A stretch of 33,281 nucleotides of DNA, taken from positions 1 through 33,281 of the forward strand of contig JAFVZL010000025.1 of NCBI GenBank assembly GCA_017508195.1. The letters are read 5' to 3'. The number at the start of each line of letters is the position of its first letter. Positions within the stretch are counted from its first letter, which is position 1. This document shows positions 2,594-14,647 of the stretch, piece after piece. Below the pieces are notes generated by a model, which was given only the letters and a program-made list of their open reading frames with translations, had not been told where the DNA came from and did not search any database. This DNA is from Clostridia bacterium (GTDB taxonomy: Bacteria; Bacillota; Clostridia; Oscillospirales; CAG-272). The position numbers were made by a program, and so were the translations under genes.

Positions 2594-3931
2594 ATGATCG
2601 AGCGTTCTATAACGATAGACCTTTCCAAAAAAGGCGTTAAGGTAAAGCCACTGTCGGGTGTTTGCCTCGGGCCACTATTCGATACAGAGCCGAGAATTGA
2701 TCTATCCGAAGAATACAGCGAGCTTGCAATACCCATTGTTCGTACGGGTATGTACGATGCTCCGGCAGGCTCGGTGTGCTTTCTCGATATCCACAACATT
2801 TTTCCCGACGCAGCTCTTGACGAGCGTTTCCCCGAGTCATACGACTTTAAGCTTGCCGACGAGTATATGGCATCGATTAAAAATGTCGGAGCCGATATCT
2901 ACTTAAGACTCGGTGAGAGCAGGGATAAATACTCGCATAATCCTACACGCCCCCACGTCAGCTATGAAAAATGGGCAAGGATTGCCGAGAAGATCATACT
3001 CCATTATAACAAGGGATGGGGAAGGGGCGCGAAGTATTCCGTCAAGTACGTTGAGATATGGCCGGGCGCGGATAAGCCCGGGGCGTTCACCTCTCGCGAG
3101 GACTACTTCGAGTTTTACCGCACGGTTGCTACTCACCTGAAGGGTGCTTTTCCTACTTTGAAGGTCGGAGGCTATTCCTCCGGCGGCTTCGCCTCGCTCA
3201 ATCGCTATGACGCCTCGGACGAGGAGCGCGGATACGTTGACTTCCTTGAGCATTTTCTTGCATATATTACTGATAAGGATACGTCTGCTCCTCTCGACTT
3301 CCTCTCGTGGGAGTGCCGTGCAGACTCAGCTGAGGAGCTATCTTTGCACAGCAACTATGCGAAGAACTACCTTTTGCAGTATAAGCTGAAAAAAACGCTC
3401 AGCATCGTATCCTCTCTGAAGCTCGAGTGTGAGACGAATCCAAGGCTGTCCCGTGACTATCCGGCAAGGCTTGCCACGGCTCTTATTGTGGCATCCGATG
3501 CTAATATTGATATGATGTTCTATTCGAGCCTTCACCCGTATTCTCCCGACAACGCGGTTATTACCGTCGACGATTGCGAGAATAAGCATAAGTACGGTGC
3601 GTATGCCGTTCTATCCGCCTTCGGTACACTCATGAAGCATGGCAGCGTCGTATCCACGAGCGATAACTTCCGCCGTGAGATCTACTCTCTCGCAACCGCA
3701 TCCGATTCCGGTGCGGCTATCATGGTTGCCACCGCAAATTATTCCGGCACGCTCAAGATTGCCATAAAGGGCTCACCCTTCACAAGATACTCGATAAAGG
3801 GTATGCTCGGCGGCGGCAAGCGCGGTGTAGGGTACTCGACCGCACAGGAAAATCTTCCGCTCGGCATAGGATCACTGACCTTGAAGGTTGGCAGATGTGA
3901 GATATATCTCATCACTCTTTCAAACCCGTAA
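2594..3931 (+). CDS. GH39-like (beta-xylosidase fold) protein, probably catalytically degenerate
   Basis: This is a 445-residue protein without a signal peptide. The central part (about 45-310) resembles a GH39 TIM barrel: the strand with VEIW at 153-156, then EDYFEFYRTVATHLK at 169-183 and PTLKVGGYSSGG at 187-198. A beta-rich C-terminal domain (about 350-440) fits the GH39 accessory domain. In GH39 enzymes the acid/base Glu lies in a WNEP motif; here the aligned positions read W156-P157-G158-A159. The usual SWHxY and TEWN motifs are also not recognisable (SWECR at 238-242; LECETN at 277-282). Sugar binding or a non-enzymatic role is therefore possible. The SD is GGAGGCG just upstream. The fold call is from pattern only. 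Confidence 0.55.
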   Translation: MIERSITIDLSKKGVKVKPLSGVCLGPLFDTEPRIDLSEEYSELAIPIVRTGMYDAPAGSVCFLDIHNIFPDAALDERFPESYDFKLADEYMASIKNVGADIYLRLGESRDKYSHNPTRPHVSYEKWARIAEKIILHYNKGWGRGAKYSVKYVEIWPGADKPGAFTSREDYFEFYRTVATHLKGAFPTLKVGGYSSGGFASLNRYDASDEERGYVDFLEHFLAYITDKDTSAPLDFLSWECRADSAEELSLHSNYAKNYLLQYKLKKTLSIVSSLKLECETNPRLSRDYPARLATALIVASDANIDMMFYSSLHPYSPDNAVITVDDCENKHKYGAYAVLSAFGTLMKHGSVVSTSDNFRREIYSLATASDSGAAIMVATANYSGTLKIAIKGSPFTRYSIKGMLGGGKRGVGYSTAQENLPLGIGSLTLKVGRCEIYLITLSNP

Positions 3932-4168: not shown

Positions 4169-4663
4169 ATGAAAAAAGTAGCAGTAATCATGGGTAGCGA
4201 CAGCGACCTTCCGATCGTGGAAAAGGGAATAGCCGTTCTTCGGGAATACGGTATCCCGTTTGAGGTACACGTTTATTCGGCTCACAGAACGCCTCTTGAA
4301 TGTGCGGAGTTCGTAAAGAGTGCCGAGGATGAGGGCTTTGGCGTTATTATCGCGGCGGCGGGAATGGCTGCCCACCTCGCAGGTGCTATCGCGGCAAACA
4401 CGACACTCCCTGTCATAGGTATTCCTATCTCATCGAAGAATACCGGAGGCATCGATGCGCTCCTTTCTACCGTTCAGATGCCATCGGGCATCCCGGTAGC
4501 TACGGTCGCTATTGACGGTGCGGCGAACGCTGCACACCTTGCTGCCGAGATACTCGCTCTTTCGGATAAGGAGCTCTCACGCAAGGTAAAGGATGCTCGC
4601 GCGGCGGGCTACGGAAAGGTTCTTGAAAAGAATCGCGCTATTGAAGAGCGCTTTAACGGCTAA
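4169..4663 (+). CDS. purE: 5-(carboxyamino)imidazole ribonucleotide mutase / AIR carboxylase catalytic subunit
   Basis: This 164-residue protein forms CAIR in purine synthesis. MGSDSDLPIVEKG at residues 8-20 is the nucleotide-binding loop, SAHRTP at 37-42 is the family signature, AAGMAAHLAG at 63-72 is the active-site glycine loop, and VQMPSGIPVATVAI follows. These features look like class I (bacterial) PurE, which normally works with PurK; no purK is in this window. AAAGGAAAG lies just upstream of the ATG. It is the first gene of the operon and directly downstream of the riboswitch terminator. Confidence 0.95.
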   Translation: MKKVAVIMGSDSDLPIVEKGIAVLREYGIPFEVHVYSAHRTPLECAEFVKSAEDEGFGVIIAAAGMAAHLAGAIAANTTLPVIGIPISSKNTGGIDALLSTVQMPSGIPVATVAIDGAANAAHLAAEILALSDKELSRKVKDARAAGYGKVLEKNRAIEERFNG

Positions 4664-4683
4664 GCCTTTTGCTCGGAGGAAGA

Positions 4684-6099
4684 ATGGGAATTTTCGGTAT
4701 TACGGGAAATGAAAGAGGCGATCTTGCCTCAATAACTTATTACGGTCTTTACGCACTTCAGCACAGAGGTCAGGAGAGTGCGGGAATTGCGGTCAACGAC
4801 GACGGAGTGTTTTCTGTTCATAAGGATACGGGACTTGTCGGAGACGTCTTTACCTCCGAGGTGCTCGCGCGTCTCGGTGAGGGCAATATGGCGATAGGCC
4901 ACACGCGCTACGGCACTCTCGGTACCCGAGGCATTGTGAACGCTGAGCCCATAGTGGTTAATCATATCAAAGGACGTCTCGCGCTTGCGACTGAGGGAGC
5001 ACTTGTTAACGCCGGGCCGCTCCGTAAGGAGCTCGAGCTTGGCGGTATGATATTCCATACGAGCTCGGATGCGGAGATAATATCCTGCGTCATTATTCAG
5101 GAAAGACTTAAGGCTCCGTCGATAGAGGCGGCGGTCAGCGCTGCAATGTCGCGCCTTAAAGGCGGATATACAGTCCTTCTTATGTCTCCGTCGAAGATGG
5201 TCGTTGCGAGAGATCCGCACGGTATTCATTCGGTCTGCTTTGGTAGGCGCGCAGACGGCAGATACGTCGTTGCGTCGGAAAGCTGTGCTCTTGATGCCGT
5301 TGGTGCAGTGCTTGAAAGAGAGCTGCTGCCCGGTGAGATAATAGTATTCAAAAACGGAGAGGTGACATCGCTCCGCGATCACTGCGATAGCGTACCCGAG
5401 AGGCTTTGCATTTTCGAGTACATTTACACCGCGCGTCCCGATTCGATGATATCGGGCTGCTCGGTGCAGACGGCGAGAAGAAGAGCGGGAGCGCTTCTTG
5501 CTATGGCACATCCCGTCGAGGCTGACGTCGTCGTGGGCGTTCCGGATTCGGGACTTGACGCAGCACTAGGATATTCCGAGCAGTCGGGCATCCCCTACGG
5601 CATCGGTCTTATAAAAAACAAATATATAGGCAGAACCTTTATCTCGCCGGGTCAGAATAACCGCGAGGATAAGGTAAGAATAAAGCTTAACCCGGTTTCT
5701 TCTGCAGTAAAGGGAAAGAGAGTCGTGCTCGTTGACGACTCAATAGTAAGGGGAACTACATCAGCTCGTATAGTTCGACTGCTCAGAAACGCCGGCGCAA
5801 CAGAGGTTCATCTTCGCTCTTCTGCGCCAAAATTCCTTAACCCCTGCTATTACGGTACCGATATAGATTCTCGCGAGATGCTTATCGCGTGCAAATATTC
5901 GACCGAGGAGATAGCTAAGATAGTCGGTGCGGATTCGCTTGGCTTCTTACTCCTCGAGGATGTGAGAAAGATTGCCGAGGATGCAGGTGTAAAGGGCTTC
6001 TGCACGGCGTGCTTCGACGGTGAATATCCCACGGATGCGCCTGTAAAATATACCAGTAAATATGACAATAAAATTTCCGAAAGTGAGAAAGAGCAGTGA
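4684..6099 (+). CDS. purF: Amidophosphoribosyltransferase with apparently inactive glutaminase domain
   Basis: This 471-residue protein should make phosphoribosylamine from PRPP. I chose ATG 4684 after GGAGGA (4675-4680); a TTG at 4669 adds only five residues. The N-terminal class II glutaminase domain (1-230) keeps HRGQESAG (27-34), Arg75 in GHTRYG and Asp129. It has no catalytic cysteine: the start MGIFGI aligns with CGVFGI/CGIVGI of the family. The oxyanion motif HNGNL reads TEGAL (103-107). The phosphoribosyltransferase half is intact, with the PRPP loop VLVDDSIVRGTTS at 348-360. The four Fe-S cysteines of Bacillus-type PurF are present (242, 388, 440, 443). It may use free ammonia. It ends inside the purM start codon. 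Confidence 0.93.
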   Translation: MGIFGITGNERGDLASITYYGLYALQHRGQESAGIAVNDDGVFSVHKDTGLVGDVFTSEVLARLGEGNMAIGHTRYGTLGTRGIVNAEPIVVNHIKGRLALATEGALVNAGPLRKELELGGMIFHTSSDAEIISCVIIQERLKAPSIEAAVSAAMSRLKGGYTVLLMSPSKMVVARDPHGIHSVCFGRRADGRYVVASESCALDAVGAVLERELLPGEIIVFKNGEVTSLRDHCDSVPERLCIFEYIYTARPDSMISGCSVQTARRRAGALLAMAHPVEADVVVGVPDSGLDAALGYSEQSGIPYGIGLIKNKYIGRTFISPGQNNREDKVRIKLNPVSSAVKGKRVVLVDDSIVRGTTSARIVRLLRNAGATEVHLRSSAPKFLNPCYYGTDIDSREMLIACKYSTEEIAKIVGADSLGFLLLEDVRKIAEDAGVKGFCTACFDGEYPTDAPVKYTSKYDNKISESEKEQ

Positions 6100-7142
6100 A
6101 GAATTCAAGATCTGAAAGCTATGCTAAGGCAGGCGTAGACATCACCGCAGGCTATAAGGCGGTTGAGCTTATGAAATCGCATATTGCGAGAACGAAAAAT
6201 GCGGGCTGTCTTGATGACGTGGGTGGCTTCGGCGGCATGTTCGGACTTCCGCTTTCGGGTATGGACGAGCCCGTTTTGGTTTCCGGTACTGACGGTTGCG
6301 GTACCAAGGTTAAAATGGCTATACTTGCGGATAAGCACGATACTATCGGCATTGATGCCGTTGCTATGTGCGTCAACGATATTATCTGCTCGGGTGCAAG
6401 ACCCCTCTTCTTCCTCGATTATATCGCTTGCGGAAAGAATATTCCCGAGAAGATTGCCGAGATAGTAAGCGGTGTTGCGGAGGGCTGTGTTCAGTCGGGT
6501 GCCGCACTTATCGGCGGCGAGACCGCGGAGCACCCCGGCCTCATGCCCGCGGAGGACTACGATCTCGCAGGCTTCGCGGTTGGTATCGTTGATAAGAAAA
6601 AGATAATAGATAAGGATAAGGTCGCTGTCGGTGACGTCATTATAGCACTTGCGTCGAGCGGTGTTCATTCTAACGGCTTTTCGCTTGTGCGTAAGGTGTT
6701 TGACATCGACAATAATCCGGGAGAGCTTTACGAGCCTTGTGAGGCTCTCGGTGGTGAAAGCATAGCAAATACCCTTCTTACGCCAACAAAGATTTACGTT
6801 AAGAGCGTTCTCGCGCTTCTCGACAAGGTCGAGGTCAAGGGTGTAAGCCATATAACGGGCGGCGGCTTCTATGAAAATATTCCTCGCTCTATTCCTAAGG
6901 GCATGTCGGCTAAAATTGACAAGAGTGCGATAAAGGTGCTCCCCATCTTCGAGCTCATCAGAGAGCGCGGAAATATTCCCGAGAGGGATATGTACAACAC
7001 CTATAACATGGGTGTCGGCATGAGCATTACCGTAAGTCCTGCCGACGTAGAAAAGGCACTTGAGGTGCTCCGTGATTGCGGTGAGGATGCCTACGTTATC
7101 GGTGAGATCATCGAGGGTGATGACGGAGTGGTGTTCCCGTGA
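6096..7142 (+). CDS. purM: Phosphoribosylformylglycinamidine cyclo-ligase (AIR synthetase)
   Basis: This 348-residue cytosolic enzyme closes the imidazole ring using ATP. SYAKAGVDITAGYKAVELM opens the protein, SGTDGCGTKVKMA is near 63-75, GGETAEHPG near 140-148, and YDLAGFAVG follows. The length is normal. The start is GTG at 6096, overlapping the purF stop as GTGA, so translation is probably coupled; no strong SD is visible. Family members usually have Val where this protein has Cys in the DGCGTK motif, which is not a known catalytic position. Confidence 0.95.
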   Translation: MKNSRSESYAKAGVDITAGYKAVELMKSHIARTKNAGCLDDVGGFGGMFGLPLSGMDEPVLVSGTDGCGTKVKMAILADKHDTIGIDAVAMCVNDIICSGARPLFFLDYIACGKNIPEKIAEIVSGVAEGCVQSGAALIGGETAEHPGLMPAEDYDLAGFAVGIVDKKKIIDKDKVAVGDVIIALASSGVHSNGFSLVRKVFDIDNNPGELYEPCEALGGESIANTLLTPTKIYVKSVLALLDKVEVKGVSHITGGGFYENIPRSIPKGMSAKIDKSAIKVLPIFELIRERGNIPERDMYNTYNMGVGMSITVSPADVEKALEVLRDCGEDAYVIGEIIEGDDGVVFP

Positions 7143-7750
7143 TGAAAAAGGTAAAAATAGCCGTTCTGGTTTCGGGCGGCGGAACAAATTTACAAGCACT
7201 TATCGACGCACAAAAGAGTGGTATTATCACCTCGGGTGAGATAGCTCTCGTTATTTCGAACAAAAAGGATGCCTATGCTCTCGAACGCGCGAAGGCGGCA
7301 AAAATTGACACGGCTACCGTCTTGCGTAAGGAATGTGCCGATTCTTCTGAGTTCGAGAGTCGGATAATATCCTTGATCGACGGTGCGGGCTGCGAGCTCA
7401 TCGTGCTTGCAGGATTTATGTCGATACTCTCCGAGGGCTTCACGAGCTACTACCGCGACAGAATTATAAACGTACACCCCTCGCTCATTCCCTCGTTTTG
7501 CGGTCAGGGCTTCTACGGTCTGCGCGTTCACGAGGCGGCTTTAGCTTACGGCGTGAAGGTCAGCGGAGCGACCGTTCACTTTGTGAACGAGATACCCGAC
7601 GGCGGTAAAATAATCATGCAAAAGGCTGTTGAGGTCAAGGATGGAGATACTCCCGAGACCCTTCAGAAAAGGATAATGGAGGAGGCGGAGTGGAGGATAC
7701 TCCCCCTTTCCTGTGAGCAGGTTTGTAAAAATATCCTCGAGAATAAATAA
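7142..7750 (+). CDS. purN: Phosphoribosylglycinamide formyltransferase (GART, folate-dependent)
   Basis: This 202-residue enzyme transfers a formyl group from 10-formyl-THF to GAR. SGGGTNLQALI at 11-21 binds the phosphate, Asn110 and His112 of NVHPSLIPSF are the catalytic pair, and Asp153 in the HFVNEIPDGGKIIMQ segment completes the set. A GTG at 7139 lies directly before ATG 7142; I chose the ATG, which overlaps the purM stop (TGATG) and implies coupling. Length and motifs are normal. Confidence 0.95.
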   Translation: MKKVKIAVLVSGGGTNLQALIDAQKSGIITSGEIALVISNKKDAYALERAKAAKIDTATVLRKECADSSEFESRIISLIDGAGCELIVLAGFMSILSEGFTSYYRDRIINVHPSLIPSFCGQGFYGLRVHEAALAYGVKVSGATVHFVNEIPDGGKIIMQKAVEVKDGDTPETLQKRIMEEAEWRILPLSCEQVCKNILENK

Positions 7751-7760
7751 GGAGAACAAA

Positions 7761-8477
7761 ATGAACGTATATAAGACCGATTCCATTGAAGAGCTTCTCG
7801 CAAATAACCCCTACCCGGGTCGCGGGATCGTTATCGGAAAGAGCGATGACGGAGCCGCAGTATTTGCATACTTCATTATGGGTAGAAGCGAGAACTCGCG
7901 CAACAGAGTTTTCGTAGAGCGTGACGGTGCGGTATTTACCGAGCCTTACGATTTTGCAAAGGTTTCCGATCCCTCGCTTATAATCTATTCCGCGATCCGT
8001 GAGATAGAGAATAAGATCATCGTCACAAACGGAGATCAGACCGATACCATATATGATGCTATCAAGGCAGGCGGGGATATGCGAGAGGGCCTCAGAACAA
8101 GAGAGTTCGAGCCCGACGCTCCTAACCTCACCCCCCGTATCAGCGGTGTTATCACGATGGGGCGCGGTGACTTCACCTATGAGATGAGTATCCTGAAGAG
8201 CGGCACTCCCGACGGTACGGTCTGTAACAGATACTTCTATGAGTACACTCCCGTGTCAGGACTCGGTCATTTTATACATACCTACGTTACCGACGGAAAT
8301 CCGCTCCCCACCTTTGTTGGAGAGCCCGAACGCGTCAGTATACCCACTGATATCGACAGATTTACAAAGGCTATCTGGGATAACCTCAACGAGGAGAACA
8401 AGATATCCCTCTATGTTAGATACACCGACCCAAAGAGCGGCGCATCGGATGTCCGCCTTATCAACAAGCATAAGTGA
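7761..8477 (+). CDS. purO: IMP cyclohydrolase, PurO type
   Basis: This 238-residue protein is predicted to cyclise FAICAR to IMP, the last purine step. It matches the PurO/IMP cyclohydrolase family (first known in archaea) through NPYPGRGIVIG near 16-26 and YFIMGRSENSRNRVFVE near 36-52, and it shows no relation to the PurH N-terminal MGS-like fold. GGAG at 7751-7754 sits 6 nt before the ATG, right after the purN stop. The gene is followed by a free-standing transformylase, so the pair replaces bifunctional PurH. Confidence 0.88.
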   Translation: MNVYKTDSIEELLANNPYPGRGIVIGKSDDGAAVFAYFIMGRSENSRNRVFVERDGAVFTEPYDFAKVSDPSLIIYSAIREIENKIIVTNGDQTDTIYDAIKAGGDMREGLRTREFEPDAPNLTPRISGVITMGRGDFTYEMSILKSGTPDGTVCNRYFYEYTPVSGLGHFIHTYVTDGNPLPTFVGEPERVSIPTDIDRFTKAIWDNLNEENKISLYVRYTDPKSGASDVRLINKHK

Positions 8478-8484
8478 GGTAAAT

Positions 8485-9669
8485 ATGAAAGAGTTTGAGC
8501 TTAAATACGGTTGTAACCCCAATCAGAAGCCCGCAAAGATCTTTATGCATGACGGAAGCGAGCTTCCGATAAAGATCCTTTCGGGAAGACCCGGATACAT
8601 TAATTTCCTCGATGCGTTCAACTCCTGGCAGCTTGTCAAGGAGCTGAAGGAGGCAACGGGTATGCCCTCTGCGACATCGTTCAAGCACGTCAGCCCTACC
8701 TCTGCTGCGGTTGGCCTGCCCCTCTCCGATGCTCTTAAGAGAGCCTGCTTCGTAGACGATATCAAGGGGCTTGATGACTCGCCTCTCGCTTGTGCCTACG
8801 CAAGAGCACGCGGAACCGACAGAATGTCCTCGTTCGGTGACTGGATAGCACTCTCCGACGTTTGCGACGTTACCACGGCAACCCTTATCAAGCGTGAGAT
8901 ATCCGACGGTATCATTGCTCCCGGCTACGAGCCCGAGGCTCTTGAAATACTGAAGACCAAAAAGAAGGGAAATTACAATATTATCGAGATAGACCCCGAT
9001 TACACGCCCGATCCCATCGAGCATAAGCAGGTATACGGTATCACATTCGAGCAGGGAAGAAACAACTTCGAGATAAACCGCGAGCTTCTTTCAAATATAG
9101 TAACCGTAAATAAGGAGCTTCCCGAGGACGCTGCACGCGATCTTATCATAGCGCTTATCACCCTTAAATACACTCAGTCGAATTCGGTATGCTATGCATA
9201 CGGCGGTCAGGCTATCGGTGTAGGTGCCGGACAGCAGTCGAGAATTCACTGCACCCGTCTTGCCGGTACTAAGGCTGACACGTGGCAGCTTCGTCAGTAT
9301 AAGAAGGTGCTCGATCTGCCCTTCCTTCCGACTCTCTCCCGTCCCGACAGAGATAACGTAATTGACGGCTATATAAACAAGAACGAGGAGGACGTCTGTG
9401 CAGAGGGAAATTGGCAGAAGTACTTCACCACGCGCCCCGAGCCCCTCACCGACGAGGAGGCGAGAGCATATCTTGATACCATCAAGGGCGTTGCACTCGG
9501 CTCGGATGCGTTCTTCCCGTTTGACGATAACATCGAGAGAGCCAAGAGAAGCGGAGTCAGCTACGTAGCCGAGCCCGGTGGCTCTGTCCGCGACGATATC
9601 GTTATAGAATGTGCCGATAAATACGGAATGGTAGTTGCGTTTACCGGTATGCGTCTGTTCCACCACTAA
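8485..9669 (+). CDS. Free-standing AICAR formyltransferase (PurH C-terminal domain homologue)
   Basis: This 394-residue enzyme formylates AICAR (ZMP) with 10-formyl-THF. It equals the transformylase half of PurH without the cyclohydrolase domain. Lys67-His68 in SFKHVSP are the catalytic pair; YTQSNSV, GVGAGQQSRIHCTRLA and PGGSVRDD are family signatures. The C-terminus reads TGMRLFHH rather than the TGMRHFRH of bifunctional PurH. ATG 8485 follows the purO stop by 7 nt, with TGAGGT as SD. Its substrate is the ligand sensed by the riboswitch at 4005-4095. Confidence 0.92.
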   Translation: MKEFELKYGCNPNQKPAKIFMHDGSELPIKILSGRPGYINFLDAFNSWQLVKELKEATGMPSATSFKHVSPTSAAVGLPLSDALKRACFVDDIKGLDDSPLACAYARARGTDRMSSFGDWIALSDVCDVTTATLIKREISDGIIAPGYEPEALEILKTKKKGNYNIIEIDPDYTPDPIEHKQVYGITFEQGRNNFEINRELLSNIVTVNKELPEDAARDLIIALITLKYTQSNSVCYAYGGQAIGVGAGQQSRIHCTRLAGTKADTWQLRQYKKVLDLPFLPTLSRPDRDNVIDGYINKNEEDVCAEGNWQKYFTTRPEPLTDEEARAYLDTIKGVALGSDAFFPFDDNIERAKRSGVSYVAEPGGSVRDDIVIECADKYGMVVAFTGMRLFHH

Positions 9670-9681
9670 GGAGAGTTAACG

Positions 9682-10950
9682 ATGAGGATTATGGTCGTTG
9701 GCGGTGGCGGCAGAGAGCACGCCATCATAAAAAAGCTTAAGGAAAATAAAAAGGTTGAAGAGATCTTCGCCCTTCCCGGCAACGGCGGCATGGCAAATGA
9801 TGCCACCCTCGTACCGATCGGTGCAAAGGATCTCGATGCGATAGTAGAGTTTGCGAAAAACAATGCTATCGACTATGCGGTCGTAGCGCCCGATGATCCC
9901 TTGGTGCTCGGCTGCGTTGACAGACTCGAGGAGATAGGCGTACCCTGCTTCGGTCCGAGAGCATCTGCCGCAATAATAGAGGGAAGCAAGGTCTTCTCGA
10001 AAAATCTTATGAAAAAATACGGCATCCCGACTGCGGAATACAGAGTGTTTGAGTCTGCGGATGATGCTTACGAATACCTGAAGGATGCACCTATACCGAC
10101 GGTAATAAAGGCTGACGGTCTAGCTCTCGGCAAGGGAGTTATCATTGCAACCGAGAGGGATGAGGCGCTTGCCGCGGTCCGATCCATAATGGAGGAGGGC
10201 AGATTCGGTAAGAGTGGCAGCCGTATCGTTATCGAGGAATTCCTTGAAGGCCCTGAGGTTTCTGTTCTCGCATTTACAGATGGCACTACCGTGTGTCCCA
10301 TGGTATCATCTATGGATCATAAGAGAATAGGTGACGGTGATACAGGTCTAAACACGGGAGGCATGGGAACGATAGCTCCCAACCCCTTCTATACCGAGGA
10401 TATTGCAAACAATTGTATGCAAAATATATTCGTTCCCACGATAAACGCTATGAAAAACGAGGGAAGGGAATTCCGCGGTTGCCTTTATTTCGGACTTATG
10501 ATCACGAAGGACGGGCCCAGGGTCATTGAGTATAACTGTCGCTTCGGCGATCCTGAGACGCAGGTCGTACTACCTCTTCTTGAGTCGGATCTTCTCGAGA
10601 TAATGATGGCTACTACGGAGGGCAGACTCTCCGAGTGCGAGGTAAAATTCAGTGACGGAGCAGCCGCTTGTGTCATTATGGCATCCGGCGGATATCCTGA
10701 GAGCTACAAGTCAGGATACCCCATCAGAATGGACGAGTCTGTATCCGATCATGTTTACGTTGCGGGTGCAAGACTCGAGGGCAATGAGCTTCTCACCGCG
10801 GGCGGACGAGTCCTCGGTGTGACTGCTACCGCGCCTACGCTAGAGGATGCACTTAAGACGGCTTACGAGAGAGTCGGACGTGTCGATTTTGAAGGAGCAT
10901 ATTACAGACATGACATTGGCAAGCGCGCTCTTGGCTTGAAGAAAGGATAA
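9682..10950 (+). CDS. purD: Phosphoribosylamine--glycine ligase (GAR synthetase)
   Basis: This 422-residue ATP-grasp enzyme joins phosphoribosylamine to glycine. MRIMVVGGGGREHAI opens the protein. KADGLALGKGV near 148-158 is the ATP-grasp loop, and NTGGMGTIAPNP near 226-237 and EYNCRFGDPETQ near 283-294 are family signatures. Length is normal. GGAGA at 9671-9675 precedes the ATG. It uses the unstable product of PurF, so its presence in the same transcript fits substrate hand-off. Confidence 0.95.
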   Translation: MRIMVVGGGGREHAIIKKLKENKKVEEIFALPGNGGMANDATLVPIGAKDLDAIVEFAKNNAIDYAVVAPDDPLVLGCVDRLEEIGVPCFGPRASAAIIEGSKVFSKNLMKKYGIPTAEYRVFESADDAYEYLKDAPIPTVIKADGLALGKGVIIATERDEALAAVRSIMEEGRFGKSGSRIVIEEFLEGPEVSVLAFTDGTTVCPMVSSMDHKRIGDGDTGLNTGGMGTIAPNPFYTEDIANNCMQNIFVPTINAMKNEGREFRGCLYFGLMITKDGPRVIEYNCRFGDPETQVVLPLLESDLLEIMMATTEGRLSECEVKFSDGAAACVIMASGGYPESYKSGYPIRMDESVSDHVYVAGARLEGNELLTAGGRVLGVTATAPTLEDALKTAYERVGRVDFEGAYYRHDIGKRALGLKKG

Positions 10951-10954
10951 AGGA

Positions 10955-13900
10955 ATGGTATATCGCATTTACGTAGAAAAGAAGGCGGGACTCGATAACG
11001 AGGCGAGAGCGCTTCGCTCGGAAATATCCGCCTTTCTCGGCATAAAGAACGTCGAGAGAGTAAGAATTCTGAATCGCTACGATGCAGAAAATATCACCGC
11101 TGAGCTGTTCGATTACGCGACGAAAACCGTTTTTTCGGAGCCTCAGCTCGATGACACTTATACAGAGCTTGACCCCCACGGTGCCACTGTCTTTGCGGTA
11201 GAGTACCTGCCCGGTCAGTTCGATCAGCGCGCTGATTCTGCTGCACAGTGTATTCAGCTTATCTCCCAGGGAGAAAGACCCACTGTCGCATCTGCGAGAA
11301 TCTATATGCTCTACGGCAAGCTTACGGCTGACGAGATCTCCCGCATCAAAAAGCACGTTATCAACCCCGTAGAGGCAAGAGAGGCGGAGCTTTCTGTTCG
11401 CGATACCTTAAAAACCGAGTACACCGTTCCCGCCGACGTACGCGTGCTGGAGGGCTTCACCGAGCTCGATGCCGAAGAGCTCCGCGAGTTTATAGGAGAG
11501 TACGGCCTTGCTATGGACGAGGGCGATATTGCCTTCTGTCAGCAGTACTTCATATCCGAGGGCAGATGCCCGACTATAACCGAGATAAGGATGATCGATA
11601 CCTATTGGTCAGACCACTGCCGTCACACCACGTTTAATACGATCATCGACAGTGTCAGCTTTGAGGATCCCACCCTCGAGCGGGCATATAACGAGTATAT
11701 CGCATCGAGAGAGTCGCTCGGCAGAACGAAGCCCGTGACCCTTATGGATATCGGTACTCTTGCCGCAAAATGCCTTAAAAAGGCAGGCAAGCTCGATAAG
11801 CTCGATGAGTCCGAGGAGATAAACGCCTGCACTGTAAAGGTCGACGTTACGGTTGACGGTGTTGTTGAGCCCTGGCTTCTTCTTTTCAAGAACGAGACAC
11901 ACAACCACCCGACCGAGATAGAGCCCTTCGGCGGTGCCGCTACCTGTATAGGCGGTGCGATAAGAGACCCCCTCTCGGGCAGATCCTACGTCTACGGTGC
12001 TATGCGACTGACGGGTGCGGCAGATCCTCTCTCTGCTATTGAGGATACCCTCGAGGGTAAGCTTCCGCAGAGAAAGATTGTTACGACCGCAGCACACGGC
12101 TATTCCTCGTACGGCAATCAGATCGGTCTTGCTACGGGCATCGTTGACGAGATATATCACGACGGCTATGCCGCAAAGCATATGGAGGTAGGTGCGGTAA
12201 TTGCCGCTACCCCTGCCGAGAACGTAAGGCGCGAGTGTCCTCTTCCCGGTGACCTCATCGTGCTCCTTGGCGGAAGAACGGGTCGCGATGGCTGCGGCGG
12301 TGCTACCGGTTCGTCAAAGTCCCATAATGTAAAGTCGCTCGAGAGCTGCGGAGCAGAGGTTCAGAAGGGTAACGCACCGGAGGAAAGAAAGCTTCAGCGC
12401 CTATTCAGAAATCCCGAGGTATCGCGTATGATAAAGCGATGCAATGACTTCGGTGCGGGCGGTGTATCCGTTGCGATAGGCGAGCTTGCCGACGGACTTG
12501 ATATCAACCTCGATGCAGTGCCTAAGAAGTATGAGGGACTTGACGGAACCGAGCTTGCGATAAGCGAGTCGCAGGAGAGAATGGCGGTGGTTATCGAGAA
12601 GGAGAGCCGTGAGCGCTTCCTCGAGCTTGCAGAAGGTGAGAACCTAGAGGCTACCGTTGTTGCTGCCGTTAAGGCAGATGCAAGACTTACGATGACGTGG
12701 CGCGGCAAGGTCATTTGCGATATCAGCCGCGAGTTCCTTAATTCAAACGGTGCTGAAAAGCATATAAGCATCAATACCGCAAAGGCTGAGAGCTTCACCC
12801 GTGAGCTCCCCGAGAGCTTCAGCGAGGGCGTGATAAAGACACTCTCCGACCTCAACTGCTGCTCTAAGAGAGGTCTCTCTGAGCGCTTCGACAGTACGAT
12901 AGGTGCGGGCACGGTGCTTATGCCCTTCGGCGGTGCGCGCCAGCGCACACCCATTCAGGCGATGGTACAGAAGCTTTCGGTTGAGAAGAAGCACACCGAT
13001 CTTGCATCCTTTATGTCCTGGGGCTACAACCCCTATATTTCAGAGAAGAGCCCCTATCACGGAGCGTATCTCGCGGTTGTTGAGTCGGTTGCTAAGCTTG
13101 TCAGCACGGGCGCAGATTTCAAGGACGTTTACCTCACCTTCCAAGAGTATTTCAAGAAGCTCGGTAAGGATAGCGACAGATGGGGTCAGCCCATGGCTGC
13201 ACTCCTCGGTGCCTTCCGCGCACAGATGGATCTCGGAGTTGCCGCTATCGGCGGTAAGGACTCCATGAGCGGATCCTTTGAGTCTCTCGACGTTCCCCCG
13301 ACTCTTATCTCCTTCGCAGTCACCACCGACCCCGTTAATAAGGTTGTGTCCCCCGAGTTCAAGAGAGCGGGCAGCAGGGTAGTTATTCTATCTCCCAAGT
13401 ATAATGTTGACGGACTTCCCGATAAGGACTCGCTGATTTCGCTCTTTGACAAGATCTCCTCGCTCAGAAACGAGGGCAAGATTCTTTCTATGTACACCCC
13501 CACCTCGGGAGGTGTTATAGAGGCTGTCGTAAAGATGGCTATGGGTAACGGCTTTGGCTTTAAATTTGACACGGGTGTAGATTTAAAGACCATTTTCGGC
13601 TATTCCTACGGCTCGTTTATCATAGAGCTTGCATCCGATGAGAATATCGGTGAGCTTCTCGGATATACCACCGAGGAGGAGATATTCACCTATGGTGATG
13701 AAAGCGTTGAGGCAAGCAAAGTGTATAAGGCATATGAGGACAAGCTCGAGAGCGTTTACTCCTGTAACGTAAAGAGCCCCGATGAAAAGGTTGAGAACGT
13801 AAGCTATACCGCAACCGAGCGCAGAGCACCGAGTGTGTTCACCGCGAAGCCCAGGGTGCTCATCCCCGTATTCCCCGGCACGAACTGCGAGTACGACTCC

Positions 13901-14647
13901 GCGAAGGCGGTCATGGACGCAGGTGCCGATGCCGAGATATTCGTTATCAACAACCTCTCGAAGGACGGTATCAGACGCTCTGCCGAGAGCTTCGCAGAGA
14001 AGCTTTCGGGCTCCGAGGCGCTCTTTATTCCCGGCGGCTTCTCGGGCGGTGACGAGCCTGACGGATCGGGTAAATTCATCACTGCGTTTATGAGAGGCGA
14101 GACCGTTAAAAACGCTGTAACCGAGCTTCTTGACAGGCGTGACGGACTTATCCTCGGTATCTGCAACGGATTCCAGGCACTTGTTAAGCTCGGACTCGTT
14201 CCCTACGGAAAGATCATCGACACCGATGAGAGCTGCCCCACCCTTACATTTAACAATATTGCGCGTCATCAGTCTAAGATAGTCAGAACGAGAATTGCAT
14301 CGAATATGTCCCCGTGGCTCGCATTTACTGAGGTGGGAGAGATCTATAACGTACCGATCTCTCACGGTGAGGGTAAGTTCTTAGCAGATGATAAAACCGT
14401 AAAAGAGCTTATAAAGAACGGCCAGATCGCGACTCAGTACGTCGATATGAACGCAAACGCGACCTACGATATCGATTTTAACCCCAACGGCTCGACCTAT
14501 GCTATCGAGGGTATCACCTCACCCGACGGCAGAGTTCTCGGTAAGATGGGTCACTCCGAGAGAATCGGCGACGGACTTTATAAAAACGTTCCCGGCGAAT
14601 ACGATATCAAGATGTTCAGATCTATGGTTAAGTATTTTAAGGGATGA
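10955..14647 (+). CDS. purL: Phosphoribosylformylglycinamidine synthase, single-chain large form
   Basis: This 1230-residue enzyme converts FGAR to FGAM with glutamine and ATP. It is the fused form, so purS and purQ are not needed. YWSDHCRHTTF near 215-225 and the FKNETHNHPTEIEPFGGAAT region near 311-330 are synthetase signatures. The C-terminal class I glutaminase (about 965-1230) has FPGTNCEYD, the nucleophile Cys1070 in GICNGFQAL, and His1137/Glu1139 in SHGEGK. GAAAGGA inside the end of purD is the likely SD for ATG 10955. Unlike PurF, its glutaminase site is complete. It is the last gene of the operon. Confidence 0.95.
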   Translation: MVYRIYVEKKAGLDNEARALRSEISAFLGIKNVERVRILNRYDAENITAELFDYATKTVFSEPQLDDTYTELDPHGATVFAVEYLPGQFDQRADSAAQCIQLISQGERPTVASARIYMLYGKLTADEISRIKKHVINPVEAREAELSVRDTLKTEYTVPADVRVLEGFTELDAEELREFIGEYGLAMDEGDIAFCQQYFISEGRCPTITEIRMIDTYWSDHCRHTTFNTIIDSVSFEDPTLERAYNEYIASRESLGRTKPVTLMDIGTLAAKCLKKAGKLDKLDESEEINACTVKVDVTVDGVVEPWLLLFKNETHNHPTEIEPFGGAATCIGGAIRDPLSGRSYVYGAMRLTGAADPLSAIEDTLEGKLPQRKIVTTAAHGYSSYGNQIGLATGIVDEIYHDGYAAKHMEVGAVIAATPAENVRRECPLPGDLIVLLGGRTGRDGCGGATGSSKSHNVKSLESCGAEVQKGNAPEERKLQRLFRNPEVSRMIKRCNDFGAGGVSVAIGELADGLDINLDAVPKKYEGLDGTELAISESQERMAVVIEKESRERFLELAEGENLEATVVAAVKADARLTMTWRGKVICDISREFLNSNGAEKHISINTAKAESFTRELPESFSEGVIKTLSDLNCCSKRGLSERFDSTIGAGTVLMPFGGARQRTPIQAMVQKLSVEKKHTDLASFMSWGYNPYISEKSPYHGAYLAVVESVAKLVSTGADFKDVYLTFQEYFKKLGKDSDRWGQPMAALLGAFRAQMDLGVAAIGGKDSMSGSFESLDVPPTLISFAVTTDPVNKVVSPEFKRAGSRVVILSPKYNVDGLPDKDSLISLFDKISSLRNEGKILSMYTPTSGGVIEAVVKMAMGNGFGFKFDTGVDLKTIFGYSYGSFIIELASDENIGELLGYTTEEEIFTYGDESVEASKVYKAYEDKLESVYSCNVKSPDEKVENVSYTATERRAPSVFTAKPRVLIPVFPGTNCEYDSAKAVMDAGADAEIFVINNLSKDGIRRSAESFAEKLSGSEALFIPGGFSGGDEPDGSGKFITAFMRGETVKNAVTELLDRRDGLILGICNGFQALVKLGLVPYGKIIDTDESCPTLTFNNIARHQSKIVRTRIASNMSPWLAFTEVGEIYNVPISHGEGKFLADDKTVKELIKNGQIATQYVDMNANATYDIDFNPNGSTYAIEGITSPDGRVLGKMGHSERIGDGLYKNVPGEYDIKMFRSMVKYFKG

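Follow-up and report, generated by a model that had tools for sequence, protein, structure and literature searches.

The question raised by this locus is how a PurF that starts with Met in the position of the catalytic Cys1 of its family could supply phosphoribosylamine, and whether it still depends on glutamine as a source of nitrogen. The gene lies in a 33,281-nucleotide stretch of a Clostridia bacterium genome (GenBank assembly GCA_017508195.1, contig JAFVZL010000025.1), and this entire stretch is referred to here as the window. The genome from which it comes is 88% complete and is distributed over 54 contigs. A preliminary description made from the letters of the window had proposed that this PurF cannot hydrolyse glutamine and had offered three options for its nitrogen: free ammonia, ammonia drawn from another protein, or bound glutamine serving only as a signal.

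The purF gene is part of a pur operon with the order purE-purF-purM-purN...purD-purL (Table 1), and its product is composed of a non-catalytic class II glutaminase domain (approximately residues 1-231, matched above cut-off by both PF13537 and PF13522) and an intact PRTase domain (approximately residues 232-451). The likely ribosome-binding site places the start at the ATG. Upstream of this codon, just nine sense codons (RLSLLLGGR) follow an in-frame TAA at 4654-4656, so there is neither an in-frame Cys nor a propeptide, as had been described, and an alternative upstream start with Cys is ruled out. Alignment to the B. subtilis PurF puts the MGIFGI start in register.

Table 1. Features of the purF locus and of two other loci of the same genome. 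Positions are those of the window; positions prefixed with L refer to loci on contigs C54 and C28 of the window genome, labelled G000.
Feature	Position	Strand	Basis or remark
purE, upstream gene of operon	4169..4663	+	TIGR01162 above cut-off
GGAGG, likely ribosome-binding site of purF	4675..4679	+	Read directly; 5-9 bases upstream of ATG
purF, 471 aa	4684..6099	+	TIGR01134 equivalog, whole-length match; 471 bits, curated cut-off 350
ATG, Met1 in place of the family's catalytic Cys1	4684..4686	+	Met in 51/51 of clade, Cys in 89/89 others
Arg75 (Arg73 of E. coli), glutamine-carboxylate contact, kept	4906..4908	+	51/51 Cys-less, 88/89 with Cys1
Glu88 for conserved Gln of AQP motif	4945..4947	+	Alignment of 140 PurFs
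TEGAL for HNGNL; catalytic His (T103) and oxyanion Asn gone, Gly kept	4990..5004	+	Direct reading, alignment
Asp129 (Asp127 of E. coli), glutamine contact, kept in window PurF	5068..5070	+	Missing in 7/51 of clade
Fe-S cysteines 242, 388, 440, 443	5407..5409, 5845..5847, 6001..6003, 6010..6012 (span 5407..6012)	+	51/51 Cys-less
VDDSIVRGTT, PRPP-binding loop, intact	5731..5760	+	Direct reading, alignment
purM, overlaps purF end	6096..7142	+	TIGR00878 above cut-off
purN	7139..7750	+	TIGR00639 above cut-off
PurO-type IMP cyclohydrolase (PF07826)	7713..8477	+	Match covers residues 34-239; true start probably inside ORF
Stand-alone AICAR formyltransferase (PRK07106 type)	8239..9669	+	Family match residues 83-476, from ~8485
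purD	9682..10950	+	Profile match
purL with fused PurQ glutaminase domain	10955..14647	+	Cys and His-Glu motifs intact
pyrC then carB, carA missing	L327:6914-11366 (G000:C54)		Direct reading
Short GuaA, ATPPase domain only, 326 aa	L328:5286-6263 (G000:C28)		Matches 196-512 of 512-residue model

The active-site readings of the preliminary description were largely confirmed. TEGAL stands at residues 103-107 in register with HNGNL of the B. subtilis structure 1ao0, leaving Glu104-Gly105 where the family has the Asn-Gly of the oxyanion hole, and Arg75, Asp129, the PRPP loop and the four Fe-S cysteines are all present. The further statement that all else is intact is borne out by the PRTase residues checked, but not quite by the glutaminase domain, where Thr103 takes the place of the catalytic His and the AQP motif carries Glu instead of Gln. 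Window PurF has the same domain order and PRPP loop as the PurFs of B. subtilis (PDB 1ao0/1gph) and E. coli (1ecc), is homologous to 1ao0 over its whole length (427 bits) and has Fe-S cysteines of the B. subtilis type; in contrast to these enzymes it lacks Cys1, propeptide, catalytic His, oxyanion Asn and the AQP Gln. With the nucleophile, the catalytic His and the oxyanion Asn missing together, the sequence lends good support to the proposal that this PurF has lost glutamine hydrolysis, and it predicts that glutamine-dependent synthesis of phosphoribosylamine would be absent.

To place these changes in context, we compiled 214 PurF hits and retained 140 distinct proteins, including that of the window, after removal of identical, short or truncated ones; alignment A3 left out L147, which has a stop inside its translation. 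The set comprises 51 Cys-less proteins, all with Met1, and 89 with Cys1. Conservation of the two losses differs: Met1 is found throughout the Cys-less clade, but the Asn of HNGN is gone in 43 of its 51 members and still kept in 8, compared with no loss among the 89. Position 88 is Glu in every Cys-less protein, while the Cys1-bearing proteins have Gln in 88 cases and Leu in one. In the triad proposed for the E. coli enzyme Asp29 is the acid; at the equivalent position 31, 27 of the Cys-less proteins have Glu and 24 have Ala. None of the 51 departs from the family at the PRTase, flexible-loop and Fe-S positions checked.

The Cys-less PurFs are monophyletic, with support of 1.0 for the full alignment, 0.992 for the PRTase domain alone and 0.969 for the glutaminase domain alone, and within them the 24 Ala31 proteins form a clade while the 27 Glu31 proteins do not. 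Parsimony assigns a single loss to Cys1, three to Asp129, four (Fitch) to seven (Dollo) losses or changes to Asn104, and nine losses to His103 (Dollo, whole tree). As Asn104 persists in seven Glu31 proteins and one Ala31 protein, the nucleophile was apparently the first to go, and the order of loss in the pocket seems to have been Cys, followed by Asn, His and Asp. With the topology fixed, glutaminase branches exceed PRTase branches in length by a factor of 1.94 (bootstrap range 1.71-2.21) within the clade, compared with 1.26 (1.15-1.39) in the rest of the tree, so that relative to the PRTase domain the Cys-less glutaminase domain evolves approximately 1.5 times faster. This difference persists in the four branch-length bins that hold both groups, although it is small in the shortest bin (1.63 vs 1.33); the rest of the tree also has five very long branches, with a ratio of 1.82, that have no counterpart inside the clade. 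Constraint is relaxed in the clade at 11 of the 65 glutaminase-domain positions that are at least 97% conserved in the Cys1-bearing proteins, compared with 1 of 70 such positions in the PRTase domain (Fisher p = 0.0017). The glutaminase domain of the Cys-less PurFs is under relaxed constraint, decaying yet retained.

Possible intermediates are four PurFs outside the clade (G004, G019, G020 and G030; L066, L067, L020 and L029) in which Cys1 is retained while the HNGN motif reads NNGT or MNGA. Their genomes lack PyrG, have PurF as their only class II match and contain only small class I matches.

The distribution of the Cys-less form is narrow. Whole window PurF finds matches at E <= 1e-10 in 53 of 59 related genomes, a count that includes GlmS and PurF' (see below), and an N-terminal query of 69 genomes of the genus identifies Cys-less PurF in 17, including that of the window. 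An order-wide sample of 394 genomes added G306, G263 and G451, which belong to a different genus within the family and whose PurFs (L299-L301) begin with Met; the matches listed in that sample all begin at residue 2 except those of these three genomes, the window genome and G075, a further member of the window's own genus. Relatives with MCGIFG at this locus, which the preliminary description had named as a sign of assembly error, are not found among the closest proteins: PurFs at least 68% identical, among the matches listed, all start with Met, and many PurFs with Cys1 appear among more distant relatives at 67% identity and lower. In a scan of named genomes, the best 80 of 564 loci encoding a relative include 39 Cys-less ones, all from MAGs and none from a cultured strain. 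The sampling site is named for 32 of these 39 and is in every case ruminant hindgut (caecum, colon or rectum of sheep, goat, roe deer, water deer or yak); seven carry no site.

The genus also contains a second glutaminase-less PurF-like protein, which we call PurF' and defined by the profile of alignment A2. It starts with MGGFFG and, like window PurF, lacks Cys1 and the HNGN Asn. It differs in being only about 30% identical to window PurF, in missing the Arg73 segment and in falling below the TIGR01134 cut-off of 350 (160.6 and 179.7 bits for two members). Window PurF is not a member of this group, scoring 148.9 bits against the A2 profile compared with 679-944 for full-length PurF', and among solved structures the profile finds ordinary PurFs only. 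Full or large partial copies are present in 30 genomes of the genus (e.g. L033:5183-6604), with purM directly downstream in 27 of the 30 (not G014, G070 or G026). PurF'-like proteins may also occur in other Clostridia and in Bacteroidetes. If PurF' works as a PurF, the genus lost the glutaminase of PurF at least twice. In G053 a Cys1-bearing PurF and PurF' stand in tandem within one pur operon (L065:10506-13400).

Several other glutamine-using enzymes of these genomes have been lost or shortened as well. In 15 of the 17 Cys-less genomes a search with PF13522 (E <= 0.001) finds no class II glutaminase besides PurF; the exceptions are G011, with one further match in a 621-aa frame of GlmS length, and G086, with four. 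Incompleteness alone does not explain this absence, since the product of the chances that sampling missed the genes is approximately 1e-13 over the 15 genomes. A class II profile search of the 88% complete window genome found no glutaminase of the GlmS, AsnB or GOGAT type. CarB is present there, together with pyrB, pyrE, pyrC, pyrD, pyrF and pyrK for the rest of the UMP pathway, and CarA was not found in that genome. In all six Cys-less genomes read (G000, G016, G002, G075, G031 and G060) carB follows pyrC with no carA between them (gaps of up to ~0.4 kb), whereas the Cys1-bearing relatives read keep carA, either between pyrC and carB (G003) or adjoining carB (G009, G088). The GuaA of the window genome matches only the ATPPase part of its model and is thus missing the glutaminase part, and four further Cys-less genomes read have GuaA ORFs of 326-356 aa. 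Full-length and short GuaA are found together in several PyrG-bearing genomes.

Glutamine itself has not been wholly abandoned. The type III glutamine synthetase of the window genome rules out an inability to make glutamine, and total loss of glutamine amidotransferases is ruled out by the PurL glutaminase and by HisH, which was identified in one Cys-less genome, G011. The retreat is also uneven, as seen in the additional GlmS-length match of G011 and in G086, which carries several further class II matches along with PyrG and full-length GuaA.

On this evidence we consider it very probable that the window purF encodes a working PRPP aminotransferase, forming phosphoribosylamine from PRPP and free ammonia in a lineage that dropped or trimmed other glutamine-dependent enzymes. 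Among the three options of the preliminary description free ammonia fits best because the losses extend to carA, to genes of the GlmS/AsnB type and to the glutaminase domain of GuaA. Cys1 would have been lost once, in the ancestor of these hindgut Clostridia, and the same lineage would have come to rely on CarB without CarA, on GuaA without its glutaminase domain and on no GlmS/AsnB/GOGAT-type glutaminase that we could find, with PurF, CarB and GuaA presumably taking ammonia directly. The glutaminase domain may have been kept because the PRTase site needs it, staying as a structural part that probably helps this site to close and form. The driver was probably abundant hindgut ammonia, which would make its direct use affordable. 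Glutamine continues to be made by the type III synthetase, and the glutaminase site of PurL is intact. Taken together, the gene content suggests that the group may build much of its nucleotides from free ammonia.

Precedents for such chemistry exist. Mammalian carbamoyl-phosphate synthetase I, a different enzyme with a class I glutaminase, has likewise lost the glutaminase Cys and uses free ammonia. The ATPPase unit of GMPS alone, and most amidotransferases, use external ammonia (PMC10526850). E. coli PurF in which Cys1 was changed to Ala or Ser lost the nucleophile as window PurF has, and showed no detectable glutamine activity while ammonia was still used (Mei and Zalkin 1989, as cited in PMC3261824). 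Unlike these laboratory mutants, the loss in window PurF is natural and clade-wide, and the pocket has decayed further. The nearest precedent in the literature is one archaeal PurF-like paralogue, Mlab_0150 of Methanocorpusculum labreanum, a natural protein with Ser for the active Cys; it differs in standing alongside an intact paralogue in the same genome, and its identity as a PurF was doubted by the authors (PMC3261824).

Ammonia could instead reach PurF in trans from another glutaminase, such as PurL or an unrecognised subunit, so that the enzyme would still be glutamine-fed in the cell. PurL is encoded in the same operon with its glutaminase Cys and His-Glu motif intact. A pattern search located PurL in 16 further loci, all of which have the Cys and 14 of which match the His-Glu pattern (the exceptions being L053, from a Cys-less genome, and L061). 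The path toward the PRTase site is also kept: the channel-wall residues Tyr76 and Ile320, which we take to be Tyr74 and Ile335 of E. coli, are retained in all 51 Cys-less proteins. In the E. coli enzyme the channel wall includes Tyr74 and Ile335 (PMC7953260). We nevertheless consider supply in trans unlikely, because the 15 genomes noted above have no other class II glutaminase match, class I matches at E <= 1e-10 in the window genome are limited to one peptidase C26-like protein, and no extra gene is obvious in the pur operons of Cys-less compared with Cys1-bearing genomes under a crude gene call (greedy longest ORFs, some antisense ORFs kept). That call likewise gave no obvious candidate for a companion glutaminase-supply gene in the operon. 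The peptidase C26-like gene (L329:5287-6804, G000:C40) adjoins an APH-like kinase gene (match below cut-off), with the gene for type III glutamine synthetase ~8 kb away.

Evidence against the use of free ammonia includes the pocket itself, since the retention of Arg75 in 51/51 and of Asp129 in 44/51 Cys-less PurFs exceeds the needs of a fully idle pocket. Together with Gly105 (50/51), these residues would suit a pocket that binds glutamine without hydrolysis and reports nitrogen status to the PRTase domain. Such a signal, also among the options first offered, is weakened by the absence of Asp129 in 7/51 and of Asn104 in 43/51; the former was lost in three separate lineages, the latter in four to seven, and the whole domain is under relaxed constraint. 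We regard this role as very unlikely.

The Cys-less copy might also be redundant with a second, glutamine-using PurF in the cell. All these genomes are incomplete drafts, and at 88% completeness the window assembly could be missing a second PurF or a helper; G086 has both Cys-less and Cys1-bearing PurF, and G014 has Cys-less PurF and PurF'. A search for a second purF, as the preliminary description had proposed, found none in the window genome at E <= 0.01, 15 of the 17 Cys-less genomes have neither Cys1-bearing PurF nor PurF', and the Cys-less gene occupies the pur operon, which together make redundancy highly improbable. G086 (L343, L344), which may be a mixed bin, is alone in having both PurF forms, and no other Cys-less genome has PyrG and full-length GuaA.

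Although the window comes from a draft genome, a sequencing or assembly error or a pseudogene has next to no probability, as had been argued from the start, because Met1 is common to 51 distinct proteins from many genomes, which rules out assembly error, and because the frames are open and the PRTase residues checked are invariant.

The wider extent of the retreat from glutamine was evaluated with a table of states for the 69 genomes, compiled by hand, in which CarA and GlmS/AsnB were recognised by ORF length and score and the 31 PurF' genomes include G021, with a 65-residue fragment only. CTP synthase (PyrG; PF06418, E <= 1e-10) was found in 17 genomes, of which only G086 is Cys-less, and was not found at this threshold in the window genome and 51 others, 14 of the 52 being at least 90% complete with at most 5% contamination. 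The 52 genomes without detected PyrG include 4 with Cys1-bearing PurF, 16 with Cys-less PurF, 25 with PurF' and 8 with none (one has two kinds), such that only Cys-less PurF or PurF' was found in 40 of them (15 Cys-less, 24 PurF', one both). Of these 52 genomes, 43 have CarB without recognised CarA, 2 give strong class I matches and 11 have some other class II match. The 17 genomes with PyrG comprise 15 with Cys1-bearing PurF and two in which PurF was not found; none has a glutaminase-less PurF alone, all have strong class I and other class II matches, and 12 have recognised CarA. Fisher tests on this table give p between 2e-5 and 1.3e-4 with related genomes treated as independent, values that are descriptive since the Cys-less set is one clade. 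The associations across genomes stem from few evolutionary events.

A broader reading is that the lineage converted most of its nucleotide nitrogen chemistry to free ammonia and forms CTP by an enzyme unrelated to PyrG. It draws on the inactivation or replacement of PurF, the missing CarA in the pyr operon, GuaA reduced to its ATPPase and the failure to find PyrG in 52 of 69 genomes. In one of these 52, that of the window, the UMP pathway was read and proved complete. We offer this reading as a tentative and rather doubtful one.

A search of titles and abstract beginnings of open-licence PMC papers found no report of a clade-wide Cys-less PurF or of such a pattern of loss. The single enzyme is of modest novelty, but the lineage-wide retreat from glutamine together with a CTP synthase that was not found deserves the attention of specialists. 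These proteins represent a natural, clade-wide amidotransferase without the ability to use its usual donor that is apparently still the sole copy for a key step, and the graded decay of its pocket, from Cys to Asn, His and Asp, provides a test of which residues serve catalysis and which serve structure. With carA missing, GuaA truncated and PyrG undetected, the nucleotide synthesis of the group may depend on ambient ammonia, with possible consequences for nitrogen use in the ruminant hindgut. For annotation, window PurF passes a curated PurF model yet, judging from its residues, should not use glutamine.

Two further observations concern the operon. The PurO-type IMP cyclohydrolase falls below the cut-off of the archaeal NCBIfam models and here lies in a bacterial operon, adjoining the stand-alone AICAR formyltransferase. 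Upstream of purE is a GH39-like glycosidase gene (window 2594-3931), which is likewise present in several Cys-less genomes (L051-L057, L060).
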